Source: Prauserella alba
GTDB lineage: Bacteria; Actinomycetota; Actinomycetes; Mycobacteriales; Pseudonocardiaceae
Direction of reading: 5' to 3'
DNA: 64,000 bases
NCBI RefSeq assembly: GCF_024171735.1
Contig: NZ_JAMTCH010000007.1
Span: forward strand, 124,001 to 188,000
Shown piece by piece: positions 24,642-28,275 of the stretch. The notes beneath the pieces were generated by a model. The model saw nothing but the letters and a program-made list of their open reading frames with translations. It did not search any database and was not told the DNA's origin. The position numbers and the translations under genes were made by a program. The first letter of the stretch is position 1. Each line of letters opens with the position of its first letter.

Positions 24642-25250
24642 ATGACCGAACCCGTGCGTGTTCCGGCCGTACCGCCTGCCCATCGGCACGGCGAGATCTA
24701 CCGCAGCGTCGCCGACCCGGCCACCGGCGATCGCACGGCGAAGCTGTACCTGCTCCTCGGAGTGAGTGAGCTGGTGGTCATGGGCGTGCTCGCGTTCTTC
24801 ATGGAACCGCCCGTGCGCTGGCTGTTGCTCGCCTTCGGCGTCGCCGGATGTGCGACGTTCGCGCTGGTGCTGTACCCGCGGGCGAAGCAGGTCGCGGGCG
24901 CTGCGGGCGACGACCTGATCAACGTGATCGTCGTGCCTTCGGGGTTGATCACGCGTGGCGGGCTCCAGCTGTCGTGGCAGGACCTGTCGGCGCTGCGGAT
25001 GGATGTCACGAAGAACGCCGGCAACCAGGGCCGGTTCGCGATGCACCTGTCCCTCCAGCTCACCGAGGGTGCTGCGGTGAAGGCACGCACGACGACGCAA
25101 GCGCAACGGAGCGGCTTCGTCGGTACGGACCGCATCCGCGTCACGCTCGGGGCTGCGGAGGAGGCGGAGCTCCAACGGGTGCGCGGGCTGCTGGAGCAGG
25201 CCTGTGCGTCGGCCGGTGTCCCGTTCGACTACACCGAACGCCGAACCTGA
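24642..25250 (+). CDS. Membrane protein with PH-like/YcxB-like domain, unknown function
   Basis: About 202 residues. After a hydrophilic N-terminus, two membrane helices (residues ~32-75: L-L-L-G-V-S-E-L-V-V-M-G-V and L-L-L-A-F-G-V-A) are followed by a soluble domain with V-V-P-S-G-L-I-T-R-G-G-L-Q-L-S-W-Q-D, the strand pattern of bacterial PH-like domains. ATG 24642 follows GGAGG with a 7-base gap. No role is known. It is convergent with the next small membrane protein gene. Confidence 0.75.
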   Translation: MTEPVRVPAVPPAHRHGEIYRSVADPATGDRTAKLYLLLGVSELVVMGVLAFFMEPPVRWLLLAFGVAGCATFALVLYPRAKQVAGAAGDDLINVIVVPSGLITRGGLQLSWQDLSALRMDVTKNAGNQGRFAMHLSLQLTEGAAVKARTTTQAQRSGFVGTDRIRVTLGAAEEAELQRVRGLLEQACASAGVPFDYTERRT

Positions 25251-25254
25251 CGAG

Positions 25255-25623
25255 TCATTCCGCGGACCTGACCGAGGCCTGCCGGGGTCCGAGAACCGCC
25301 CGGCATGCCGCGATGAGCGCCAGTGCCGCGAACTGCATGGCGGCCGCGACGACGGCGTGCACCGCCCACGCCCCGACGAGCGTCGGGCCTCCCCACGTTC
25401 CGGGGCCGAGCGCGTCGGCCAGCGGATGTGCGAGGTGTTCGATGACGTCCGGTCGTAGCGGATACAGCCATCCTGCCCAGACCAGGTACACGATCAGCGC
25501 TGCGGCGAGTGCGGCGACGACCGAAAGTCCATAGTGGACGAACTTGCGGCCGATGCCACGACTCCGGACGGGCAGGCGCCAGGCCGTGAATGCGAATCGC
25601 AGCAGTTCCCGTGGACGAGTCAT
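25255..25623 (-). CDS. Hypothetical membrane protein
   Basis: About 122 residues with two hydrophobic helices: L-S-V-V-A-A-L-A-A-A-L-I-V-Y-L-V-W and W-A-V-H-A-V-V-A-A-A-M-Q-F-A-A-L. It starts at ATG 25623 inside a slightly longer frame. No family is recognised. It is divergent from the trpS leader, whose start lies 83 bases away, so their promoters share a short region. Confidence 0.65.
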   Translation of the reverse strand: MTRPRELLRFAFTAWRLPVRSRGIGRKFVHYGLSVVAALAAALIVYLVWAGWLYPLRPDVIEHLAHPLADALGPGTWGGPTLVGAWAVHAVVAAAMQFAALALIAACRAVLGPRQASVRSAE

Positions 25624-25705
25624 GATCCGACGATCCACGACGAGGCCCGCGGCGACCATGGGGACAACCCCCGGAATCGGTCCTCACTTCGGATACGATC
25701 GGCGC

Positions 25706-25753
25706 ATGCGCACGCGAATCGCCATGTGGTGGGCCGCCGACCGGCGGCCCTGA
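25706..25753 (+). CDS. trpS leader peptide with tandem Trp codons
   Basis: A 15-codon reading frame, M-R-T-R-I-A-M-W-W-A-A-D-R-R-P. The two Trp codons (25727-25732) sit exactly where hairpin 1:2 begins. A TACGAT at 25694-25699 could be a -10 box, which would make the transcript start at or next to the ATG, so this peptide may be read from a leaderless mRNA. It matches the regulatory leader described for the auxiliary TrpRS gene of Streptomyces coelicolor in kind, though I cannot compare sequences here. Confidence 0.8.
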   Translation: MRTRIAMWWAADRRP

Positions 25754-25795
25754 CCTTGCGCATGTTCACCACGGCCGCCCGTAGGGCGGCCGTGG
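25731..25795 (+). promoter_or_regulatory. Trp transcriptional attenuator
   Basis: Four segments can be read. Segment 1 GGGCCGCC (25731-25738) pairs perfectly with segment 2 GGCGGCCC (25743-25750). Segment 3 CCACGGCCGCCC (25769-25780) pairs with segment 4 GGGCGGCCGTGG (25784-25795) in a 12-bp stem, the terminator. Segment 2 can instead pair with segment 3 (GGCGGCC with GGCCGCC at 25773-25779), the antiterminator. A ribosome stalled at the Trp codons would cover segment 1 and free segment 2. There is no strong T-run after the terminator, as is common in high-GC actinobacteria. Confidence 0.85.
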
Positions 25796-25857
25796 ACTCG
25801 CGTTTCCGCGACGGTGCGTCCCCGGGTGGTCTCCGAATCGGCCCTGGAGGCACCGAC

Positions 25858-26901
25858 ATGTCCCACCCGTCCCGTCCTCGCCTGCTCACCGGTGATCGCC
25901 CGACCGGCAGGCTCCACCTCGGCCACTACGTGGGCAGCCTCGCCAATCGGGTCCGGCTGCAGCAGGAGTACGAGACGTTCCTGATCCTGGCCGACCTGCA
26001 TCTGCTCACGACGGAGAACTCCCCCGACGCCGTGGCGCGGATTCCCCAGCACGTCCGGGAGCAGGTGCTCGACGCGCTCGCCGTGGGTGTCGACCCGGAA
26101 CGCGTCACGTTCTATCTGCAGTCCGCGATCGGCGAGGTCGCCGAGCTGAACACGTTGCTGCAGAGCCTCGTCTCGGTCTCCCGGTTGCAGCGCATCCCGA
26201 GCCTGAAGGAGATGAGCCGCGGCGGCGAGATGGGTTACGCCCTGCTGGGCTATCCGGTGCTGCAGGCCGCGGACATCCTGTGTGTCAAGGCGGGTGCCGT
26301 TCCGGTGGGGCAGGACAATCACGCCCACGTCGAGGTGACGCGCGAGATCGCGCGGCGGTTCAACGGCCTGTACGGCGAGGTCTTCCCGGTGCCCAGCGCG
26401 GTCGCCAGCGACGTGCCCAGCCTGATCGGCACCGACGGGCGGGCGAAGATGAGCAAGTCTCTCGGTAACGCGATCTACCTCTCCGATCCTGCCGAGGACG
26501 TCGCCCGCAAAGTCGCCGGCATGTACACCGATCCGCAGCGGGTACGAGCAGACGTACCCGGCACCGTCGAGGGCAACCCGGTGTTCCAGTACCACCGCGC
26601 GTTCAACGACGACCGTGGCCAGGTGGCCGACCTGGAGCAGCGGTATCGCGAAGGGCGCGTCGGCGACGTCGAGGTCAAACAGGCGCTGGCAGCGGCGCTC
26701 GACCGGTTCCTCGATCCGGTGCGGGAGCGGCGTGCGCAGTACGCTGCGCGGCCCGGATACGTCGACGAGCTGATCACCTCCGGCACGGAACGGACGCGCG
26801 TCGTGGTCCGGGAGGTGGTGTTCGAGGTGCGCCGGGCGATGGGGTTGACCGGCGCCTACAACCGGTTGCGCCGCAAGGCCGAGCGTTCGGCGAGGCACTG
26901 A
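25858..26901 (+). CDS. trpS: Tryptophanyl-tRNA synthetase
   Basis: A 347-residue class I synthetase that charges tRNA-Trp. The HIGH-type motif is G-R-L-H-L-G-H-Y near residue 17, preceded by T-G-D-R-P-T, and the KMSKS motif is intact at A-K-M-S-K-S-L-G-N. The T-G-D-R-P-T-G-R-L-H-L-G form resembles the auxiliary, indolmycin-resistant TrpRS class rather than the common bacterial form; this is a judgement from the motif only. ATG 25858 follows GGAGG. The attenuator upstream should raise expression when charged tRNA-Trp is low. Confidence 0.93.
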   Translation: MSHPSRPRLLTGDRPTGRLHLGHYVGSLANRVRLQQEYETFLILADLHLLTTENSPDAVARIPQHVREQVLDALAVGVDPERVTFYLQSAIGEVAELNTLLQSLVSVSRLQRIPSLKEMSRGGEMGYALLGYPVLQAADILCVKAGAVPVGQDNHAHVEVTREIARRFNGLYGEVFPVPSAVASDVPSLIGTDGRAKMSKSLGNAIYLSDPAEDVARKVAGMYTDPQRVRADVPGTVEGNPVFQYHRAFNDDRGQVADLEQRYREGRVGDVEVKQALAAALDRFLDPVRERRAQYAARPGYVDELITSGTERTRVVVREVVFEVRRAMGLTGAYNRLRRKAERSARH

Positions 26902-26975: not shown

Positions 26976-27007
26976 TTCAGCGCTTGCTGAATGGTCAGCG
27001 CTCGCTG
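26976..27007. promoter_or_regulatory. Two tandem palindromic operators upstream of cmtR
   Basis: TTCAGC-GCTT-GCTGAA (26976-26991) is a perfect 6-4-6 inverted repeat. CAGCG-CT-CGCTG (26996-27007) follows, so the CAGCGCT core is repeated about 17 bases apart. They lie 14-45 bases before the cmtR ATG and would suit autorepression by an ArsR-type dimer. Confidence 0.65.
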
Positions 27008-27020
27008 TACTGTTCGGTGC

Positions 27021-27461
27021 ATGCTGACGAGTGAGACGCGGGAAGCTGCGTTGTCGCGCCTGGGTCGGGCGTTGGCCGACCCCACCCGGTGCCGGATCCT
27101 GGTGGCGCTGCTGGACGGCGTGAACTACCCGGGGCAGCTGGCGACGAAGCTCGACCTGACGCGTTCGAACGTGTCGAACCATCTGGCGTGCCTGCGCGGG
27201 TGCGGGCTGGTCGTGGCCGCCTACGAGGGCAGGCAGGTCCGGTACGAGCTGGCCGATCCGCACCTCGCCCGCGCGCTGGGCGAGTTCGTGCAGGTGGTGC
27301 TGGCTGTCGACACGGGCCAGTCGTGCGTCGACGACCCGCGGCCCACTGCGGAACCGGCACCGGAAACCGTTGCGGCGTGCGGCGACGAGGACGACCCGGG
27401 TCGCGGTCCGGCCGGCGACGGTGTCGCAGTCGTCGCGGACGGGGAGCTCGCCGATGGCTGA
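27021..27461 (+). CDS. cmtR: ArsR-family Cd/Pb-type metal sensor, CmtR-like
   Basis: About 146 residues. A winged helix-turn-helix (L-T-R-S-N-V-S-N-H-L-A-C-L-R-G-C) is preceded by L-A-D-P-T-R-C-R-I-L. The three metal ligands of M. tuberculosis CmtR fall at the same positions: Cys57 and Cys61 in helix-4, and Cys102 in the tail (Q-S-C-V-D). The N-terminal Cys4 of that protein is Ser here. The C-terminal ~30 residues are an extra acidic, Gly/Ala-rich tail. It should repress its operon and release DNA on Cd(II) or Pb(II) binding. It overlaps the exporter gene by 8 bases. Confidence 0.92.
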   Translation: MLTSETREAALSRLGRALADPTRCRILVALLDGVNYPGQLATKLDLTRSNVSNHLACLRGCGLVVAAYEGRQVRYELADPHLARALGEFVQVVLAVDTGQSCVDDPRPTAEPAPETVAACGDEDDPGRGPAGDGVAVVADGELADG

Positions 27462-28275
27462 CGACTGCTGCGGCCCGAACGGTTCGCCGGTTGCCACGTC
27501 CGCCGATGCCGCGCCGTCGGCCGGAGCCACGTCCGGCACCGTTGACGCAGCCTCCGTCGACACCGGCCCGGCCGGCGTCGCGCCGGTGGGCACGGCAGGG
27601 CACGCCGACGTGCCGGGCTGTGGTGACGGGTGCTGTTCGGCGGAGGTGGCACCGCAATCAGGGTCGGGCGCGGGACCCGGCGATCACCGGCGCGCGGTGT
27701 TGTCACGCCGCGTGCGGCTGTTCGTGGCGGCGACGATCACCTACAACGTCATCGAGGCGGTCGTCGCGATCACCGCGGGTGCGGTCGCGTCATCTGCGGC
27801 GCTGATCGGGTTCGGGCTGGATTCGACGGTCGAAGTCGCGTCGGCGGCGGCCGTGGCGTGGCAGTTCGCCGGGCGCGATCCGGAGCGGCGCGAACGGCTC
27901 GCGCTGAAGGTCATCGCGGTGTCGTTCTTCGCGTTGGCGGCCTACGTGACGTTCGAGTCCGTCACGACGCTGGCCGGTGGCGAGCAGGCGGACCACTCGA
28001 CGGTCGGTATCGCGCTGGCGGCGGTGTCGCTGGTGGTCATGCCGTTCCTGTCGTATGCGCAACGCCGTGCCGGGCGCGAACTGGGGTCGGCGAGTGCGGT
28101 GGCCGATTCGAAACAGACGCTGCTGTGCACCTACCTGTCGGGTGTCGTGCTGGCCGGGCTGTTGCTGAACTCGCTGCTCGGCTGGGCGTGGGCCGATCCG
28201 GCCGCCGCCCTGGTGATCGCCGCACTCGCCGTGAAGGAGGGCCGCGACGCCTGGCGCGGCGACCACTGCTGCTGA
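27454..28275 (+). CDS. CDF-type cation efflux protein with Cys-rich ends
   Basis: About 273 residues. The N-terminal ~85 residues are hydrophilic and include M-A-D-D-C-C-G and G-C-G-D-G-C-C-S, and the C-terminus ends G-D-H-C-C; these Cys/His clusters may catch soft metals. The membrane part has five to six helices; helix 2 carries the CDF metal-site pattern as G-L-D-S-T-V-E-V-A, and a later one has V-A-D-S-K-Q-T. It lacks the long cytoplasmic C-terminal domain usual for CDF exporters. Coupling to cmtR indicates Cd/Pb-responsive export. Confidence 0.87.
   Translation: MADDCCGPNGSPVATSADAAPSAGATSGTVDAASVDTGPAGVAPVGTAGHADVPGCGDGCCSAEVAPQSGSGAGPGDHRRAVLSRRVRLFVAATITYNVIEAVVAITAGAVASSAALIGFGLDSTVEVASAAAVAWQFAGRDPERRERLALKVIAVSFFALAAYVTFESVTTLAGGEQADHSTVGIALAAVSLVVMPFLSYAQRRAGRELGSASAVADSKQTLLCTYLSGVVLAGLLLNSLLGWAWADPAAALVIAALAVKEGRDAWRGDHCC

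Follow-up and report, generated by a model that had tools for sequence, protein, structure and literature searches.

The window, a 64,000-nucleotide stretch of a Prauserella genome, contains a trpS gene (tryptophan--tRNA ligase) preceded by a short open reading frame with two adjacent Trp codons and by segments with the potential to form alternative RNA stems (25694–25857). Neighbouring genes (23.8–29.2 kb) encode a metallo-beta-lactamase-fold protein, two proteins without a Pfam match, a CmtR-type metal regulator, a cation-efflux protein and an F420-dependent LLM-class oxidoreductase. A search of the 5.6 Mb genome for a second trpS, proposed in the initial annotation, finds two genes over the TIGR00233 cut-off: that of the window and another (L002) with 38% identity to it and an intact reading frame of 351 aa. 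Only the window copy has a tandem-Trp leader, there being none in 450 nt upstream of the second gene. The leader region is organized as follows.

25694–25699, + strand: TACGAT, predicted −10 box (TAnnnT), six bases (CGGCGC) 5′ of the leader ATG
25706–25753, + strand: leader ORF MRTRIAMWWAADRRP, stop TGA at 25751–25753 (sequence; kept in sister species)
25706–25712, + strand: 5′ arm of helix P0, ATGCGCA, with the start codon inside (clade C covariation; folding)
25727–25732, + strand: tandem TGG (Trp) control codons 8 and 9 (sequence)
25731–25738, + strand: segment 1, GGGCCGCC, pairs with segment 2 over 8 bp
25743–25750, + strand: segment 2, GGCGGCCC, pairs with segment 1; 25743–25749 alternatively with segment 3
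25757–25763, + strand: 3′ arm of helix P0, TGCGCAT, four bases past the leader stop codon (clade C covariation; folding)
25769–25780, + strand: segment 3, CCACGGCCGCCC, putative terminator 5′ arm; 25773–25779 also antiterminator partner of segment 2
25784–25795, + strand: segment 4, GGGCGGCCGTGG, putative terminator 3′ arm, without a U-run after it
25846–25850, + strand: GGAGG, trpS ribosome-binding site (GGAGG also present in sisters L003, L018 and L026)
25858–26901, + strand: auxiliary trpS, tryptophan--tRNA ligase of a TrpRS II-like lineage (TIGR00233, 289.7 bits; PF00579; tree; PDB relatives)

The initial annotation had proposed a tandem-Trp peptide of 15 codons, a hairpin 1:2 of 8 bp, a perfect terminator stem 3:4 of 12 bp, an alternative pairing 2:3 of 7 bp, an overlap of the Trp codons with segment 1, and a TACGAT six bases ahead of the leader ATG, and all are present. 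The peptide starts at the ATG at 25706, the second Trp codon supplies as its last bases the two G that open segment 1, the 3:4 stem has zero mismatches, and 2:3 joins GGCGGCC (25743–25749) to GGCCGCC (25773–25779). The pairings 1:2, 2:3 and 3:4 are mutually exclusive, and the Trp codons are placed such that a ribosome on them would mask segment 1. Folding of 25690–25870, suggested in the same annotation, gives −99.9 kcal/mol (z −3.16), with 1 of 200 dinucleotide shuffles as good.

The two strands of the window contain 11 mini-ORFs of 7–30 aa that start with ATG or GTG and encode WW; the leader is the only one with TAnnnT 5–8 nt upstream, and it has a downstream stem of at least 8 bp as well. 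Twenty first-order Markov sequences of 64 kb contain 120 such mini-ORFs, one with the box and none with both box and stem. A known Rfam family is ruled out as the identity of the element: no Rfam covariance model, RF00513 (Trp leader) and T-box included, matches the attenuator at its gathering score (the whole window yields only a tRNA), and at E up to 1 the region 25650–25900 gives a single unrelated 17-bit match and six related loci give none.

Loci with both the enzyme and the leader of the window are referred to as clade C and derive from five Prauserella genomes (that of the window included) and two genomes of genus g34. All seven have TAnnnT 6 or 7 nt before the leader ATG or GTG, and leader and box are kept at all six intact loci other than the window. 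The window's TrpRS class is found, at E 1e-70 or better, in 10 of 390 genomes of the family, Pseudonocardiaceae. No gene of this kind was found in one genome of the genus (G006, 91% complete), and in another (G001) TrpRS residues 152–346 only are encoded, on a continuous contig from which ~1.07 kb corresponding to window 25244–26313 is absent. At this G001 site (L028:2080–2130) the neighbours are kept but the attenuator is gone, as is the first half of trpS, either by natural loss or through an assembly fault.

A covariance model (R1) was built from the seven clade C leaders and contains no trpS coding sequence and nothing 5′ of the start codon. Searched against 52 loci at E up to 0.1, it matches class A, clade D, L085, L090, L016 and one class B locus, and it has no match in the supplied loci of genes without a leader, including ten housekeeping-type trpS (L002, L139–L147). 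True sites also give a weaker match on their other strand (in the window 24.3 bits, vs 125.1 for the site itself). A scan of 366 family genomes with strict filters, ten candidates being scored per genome, finds R1 matches in 118, of which 115 lie directly upstream of trpS (7 of the window class and 108 of class A) and three have no trpS within the stretch taken; without the seven training loci or their species, 108 of 111 are directly upstream of trpS. Every one of the 115 trpS-linked loci carries a Trp-containing ORF of 7–30 residues (106 with WW and nine with a single Trp), starting with ATG at 72 and GTG at 43. Tandem-Trp leaders are found within 450 nt of none of 20 trpS loci classed as housekeeping, and the first 1600 bases of trpE at seven loci of the genus contain no tandem-Trp leader with a −10 box. 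In Streptomyces, Trp-codon leaders with the box are present at 21 of 21 class A and 11 of 12 class B loci read (the exception is L128); two of these 32 leaders have a single Trp. The leader counts leave out L104, whose N-terminus is missing. At L243:61–200 an R1 match has a frame reading ..RTFLAMWWAACRRP.. with no early stop and no trpS alongside, and is perhaps a decayed orphan attenuator.

This anatomy and conservation support the Trp-responsive ribosome-mediated attenuator claimed in the initial annotation, and place it on a second trpS. We read the element, with a probability of about 0.88, as a leaderless ribosome-mediated transcription attenuator that induces the auxiliary trpS when charged tRNA-Trp is short. 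Transcription would begin at the leader ATG, onto which a 70S ribosome would load directly. With ample Trp-tRNA the ribosome would reach the stop codon and mask segments 1 and 2, such that 3:4 forms and transcription ends. When Trp-tRNA is scarce it would stall on the tandem Trp codons and mask segment 1, segment 2 would take segment 3 before segment 4 exists, and the polymerase would continue into trpS. P0 would keep the switch off on a ribosome-free leader and would conceal the leaderless start codon once the first ribosome has gone by.

These states were modelled by masked folding of seven sequences, numbered in nucleotides from the leader A, with a ribosome whose A site holds the first Trp codon assumed to cover nt 1–36 (segment 1 and the 5′ arm of P0). 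When nt 1–36 are masked and the RNA extends to segment 3, 2:3 forms: the window, L003, L018 and L026 each give −16.4 kcal/mol, L021 −14.9, L036 −15.3 and L170, a class A locus, −20.0 kcal/mol. When the ribosome has reached the stop codon (nt 1–60 masked) the 3:4 stem forms (−27.5 kcal/mol in the window). Once segment 4 is present, 3:4 is the stabler fold in six of the seven sequences (L021 takes another fold), and the switch would therefore have to be kinetic; in classical attenuators too the choice of fold is kinetic. The free fold of nt 1–112 has P0, 1:2 and 3:4 together in the window, L026, L021 and L170; in L003 and L018 the 5′ end has other partners, and L036 favours 2:3 over 3:4, so that a switch that is off by default does not fit there. 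The energy cost of keeping the first 7 nt unpaired is 4.2 kcal/mol for the window and 0.8–8.6 kcal/mol for the six other sequences, and any lock of P0 on the start codon would be modest. Pairing 2:3 can form in 49 of 49 cells and is without covariation.

The leader has a −10 box 5–8 nt before its start and no Shine-Dalgarno sequence ahead of the ATG (by eye), the combination taken here as the mark of a leaderless start. TAnnnT is found 5–8 nt upstream of the leader start at all 115 trpS loci identified with the RNA model, and at 6 or 7 nt also in the leaders of classes A and B and clade D. Because the model includes no sequence 5′ of the start codon, its presence at 115 of 115 loci is independent support for a leaderless start, as the initial annotation claimed, and a transcript start at or beside the A of the leader ATG is a well supported prediction. 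If instead the leader were translated from a leadered transcript begun farther upstream, TACGAT would not be a promoter, in keeping with a consensus scan of 25500–25900 that finds no E. coli-type −35/−10 pair and with a leader frame that is open farther 5′ in the window (25544–25753). This is very improbable given the box at every one of the 115 loci with a model blind to upstream sequence, its recurrence in classes A, B and clade D, and a leader ATG without a visible Shine-Dalgarno.

Termination is less straightforward. The 3:4 stem of the window is followed by ACTCGCG and lacks the U-run of a Trp attenuator, and a consensus scan of 25500–25900 finds no intrinsic terminator. The three closest sisters (L003, L018 and L026) read CCGTTTTC at the site where the window reads CCGTGGACTC; over 25784–25810 the window is without TTTT after the stem, and its stem is two pairs longer. 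The TTTT of these sisters makes the absence in the window look like a local loss, and we read the missing U-run as lowering the claim for an intrinsic terminator, not the claim of attenuator-like working. The leader could also work without an intrinsic terminator, with 3:4 pausing the polymerase or stabilising the RNA and shut-off depending on Rho, or with the hairpins acting on translation or RNA decay. Such modes would suit the stem of the window, the 31 of 103 parsed family class A loci that have fewer than four T in the ten stem-end bases, and S. lividans TrpL2, which lacks a U-rich tail according to PMC8079986. We nevertheless regard them as unlikely, since six of the seven clade C loci have at least four T at the stem end, the trpS Shine-Dalgarno (25846–25850) is 50 nt past the stem and in neither alternative pair, and no perfect stem found downstream of the leader is stronger than the 12-bp one.

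Helix P0 encloses hairpin 1:2. All 49 of its cells are paired in clade C, with double changes at two of seven pairs: the first base of the start codon changes from A-U to G-C in both g34 rows, and position 5 from G-C to A-U in L021, where the peptide changes from R to H. Covariation in clade C is present in P0 and in 3:4, and the whole structure has four double-change pairs vs 1.6 in shuffles (5 of 500 as high). The class A helix of Streptomyces lies farther in (nt 9–17): it begins near nt 9 and does not take in the start codon, which in the window is part of P0. Class A P0 is 89.9% paired with double changes at five of nine pairs, and the whole class A structure has five double-change pairs vs 3.4 in shuffles (24 of 500 as high). 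When partners are slid by 1–3 columns, whole-structure pairing in clade C and class A falls from 95–98% to 30–51%.

The P0 signal is uneven across the wider set. With a pass set at no more than 15 shuffled linkers in 300 giving as good a longest helix, 20 of 21 class A, five of seven clade C and four of six clade D loci pass, as do one of the pair L085 and L090 and one of 11 class B loci, the class B negative being partly due to hairpins mis-set in parsing, as its short linkers show; for the window, 7 of 300 shuffles are as good. In the family, 68 of 110 loci pass at a threshold of at most 10 of 200 (5 of the 115 were unparsed and left out), and native linkers score a mean of 17.4, linkers swapped between family loci 15.0 and shuffled linkers 12.1. 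A wide family set aligned with a P0-free model (R2; 96 rows, 95 distinct, with 4 of 100 loci giving no match, and leaving out L172, L272, L273, L275–L278, L280 and the clade C loci) has 71.6% of P0 cells paired, vs at most 54.1% for slid versions and a mean of 69.8% for letter shuffles (8 of 500 as high); double-change pairs are no higher than in shuffles (5 vs 5.6), and of 93 cells for the start-codon base of P0, 45 have no partner. A cruder duplex-energy test with a wide 3′ region gives no clade C signal (for the window, 151 of 200 shuffles are as good), perhaps through inclusion of the GC-rich segment 3 in that region. On these comparisons P0 is strong in two clades, likely in a third and weak in the wider family, and is not seen in class B.

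P0 may be questioned as a functional element, ATGCGC-like starts and a GC-rich linker pairing through composition. The negative duplex test, the near absence of P0 from class B (1 of 11), the rather good pairing of swapped linkers and the narrow margin by which the wide family exceeds letter shuffles, without an excess of double changes, are all compatible with such a by-product. It is nonetheless somewhat unlikely, although with an appreciable chance of being right, because in the linker-restricted test most class A, clade C and clade D loci outscore 285 or more of 300 shuffles, double changes support two of seven pairs in clade C and five of nine in class A, and pairing collapses when the partners are slid.

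The nearest named relatives of the window TrpRS are those of Prauserella salsuginis (94% protein identity) and P. halophila (93%). In a tree of 68 sequences (quick method with SH-aLRT only; L009 left out as too gappy) it groups with sequences of Spirochaetes, Chloroflexi and Parachlamydiales (53–64% identity). The best PDB match is 6ncr, and the label TrpRS II-like is used because the third-ranked relative among solved structures is a 'Tryptophanyl-tRNA synthetase II'. The Deinococcus TrpRS II of PDB 2a4m shares the LTGDRPTG start with the window enzyme. The deepest branch of the tree (SH-aLRT 97*) separates class A from the window TrpRS, and Streptomyces TrpRS with the matching leader type MMTRTCTQLWWAA are about 34% identical to that of the window. 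S. lividans TrpL2, given as MMTRTCTQLWRAA in PMC8079986, matches these class A leaders, and as class A is in another part of the tree, the proposal of the initial annotation that this trpS belongs to the same auxiliary class as the Streptomyces enzyme fails. The tree rules out the window trpS as a member of the TrpL2-controlled class.

Leader presence requires at least five changes on the TrpRS tree. In genus g60, presumably Micromonospora (a guess), the same TrpRS class is without a tandem-Trp leader in 400 nt at 25 of 25 loci, which represent 25 of the 47 g60 genomes that gave a match, and an attenuator that tracks enzyme lineage is ruled out. Two of these 25 loci have a single-Trp ORF, neither with TAnnnT in the 16 bases upstream inspected. 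Window-class relatives in spirochaetes, chloroflexi and some actinobacteria, and Streptomyces L004 and L005, are also without the leader. In g24 (G232 and G233) the roles are reversed, the window-class trpS (L037 and L038) having no leader and the other trpS (L085 and L090) having one. Clade C genomes and g24 have one attenuated and one plain trpS each; this is not general, as in g60 neither gene has a boxed leader (six genomes read for the second gene), one second trpS there having a WW ORF at −404 without a box.

One attenuator type is found on three TrpRS classes (four clades). In an attenuator tree of 66 rows, with 20 of the 108 family class A loci hand-picked for variety, the seven clade C rows fall among Pseudonocardiaceae class A attenuators (support 88/88) in a group of 26 rows (18 class A, seven clade C and L085). 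The attenuators of clade D, whose enzyme is of the same class as that of the window, group with class B (100/99). These placements suggest, and make likely, a change of enzyme under a conserved attenuator, and in the Prauserella-type genomes suggest a different TrpRS lineage under an attenuator that groups with the class A attenuators of the family. Clades C and D as a single clade are unrejected at 5% (p-AU 0.0581), the bootstrap is unsettled, and the tree brings long branches together. None of the six neighbour genes of the window tested is found beside class A loci, and synteny thus gives no support for a swap in place. A possible reading, which we offer tentatively, is that a leaderless attenuator with a 5′-end lock has moved cassette-like between TrpRS lineages and marks the role of 'inducible spare TrpRS' rather than descent; P0 would hide the start once its downstream arm is made, such that only the first ribosome, loaded near the polymerase, decides.

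Several related systems are known. Ribosome-mediated attenuation of an auxiliary S. coelicolor trpS has reportedly been described by Vecchione and Sello. The trp operon attenuator of E. coli and actinobacteria shares the tandem Trp codons and exclusive 1:2, 2:3 and 3:4 pairings and differs in that it controls biosynthesis; the E. coli trp leader has a Shine-Dalgarno. Mycobacterial cysteine attenuators are likewise said, by the title of Canestrari 2020, to be leaderless short ORFs, and concern cysteine and different genes. Korolev 2015 reportedly treats Trp attenuators in Actinobacteria, and their breadth there may partly be in print already. The initial annotation knew of no earlier report of a leaderless start, which does not hold: leaderless Trp leader peptides before trpE and trpS of S. 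lividans are reported from TSS data in PMC8079986, where TrpL2 before trpS shares with the window a leaderless Trp leader peptide, two hairpins and the lack of a U-rich tail. A candidate attenuator is predicted for S. avermitilis trpS2 (Seliverstov 2005, PMC1262725), likewise a classical Trp attenuator before trpS in an actinobacterium; the available text names no leaderless start, P0-like helix or other TrpRS lineages. A leaderless ilvB leader in C. diphtheriae (PMC5784534) and indolmycin resistance of TrpRS1, a spare TrpRS (PMC9437257), have also been reported.

A leaderless ribosome-mediated Trp attenuator on Streptomyces trpS is thus already known, and the window appears, from its sequence and those of its relatives, to be a real and well-conserved further case. 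The additions worth following are helix P0 and the single attenuator on several TrpRS lineages; neither a 5′-end helix like P0 nor an attenuator common to TrpRS lineages was met in the open-licence literature, with queries aimed at neither. One regulatory RNA would be tied to the slot of 'inducible spare TrpRS' in several actinobacterial groups, whatever lineage fills it, and would offer a handle for finding spare TrpRS that does not rely on enzyme similarity. P0, if functional, would show how a leaderless leader limits itself to one deciding ribosome.

Three further observations concern trpS surroundings. In Streptomyces (L004 and L106–L138) non-housekeeping TrpRS fall into at least three classes: A and B, which are attenuated at nearly all loci read, and that of the window, at L004 and L005. 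At L005, L074, L044 and L053 a window-class trpS without a leader lies close behind another reading frame, the end of which resembles an aminotransferase in L005 and L074 (by eye). In the window, the gene for the CmtR-type Cd/Pb-sensing regulator overlaps the cation-efflux gene (26991–28275), likely forming a metal-resistance pair beside trpS.
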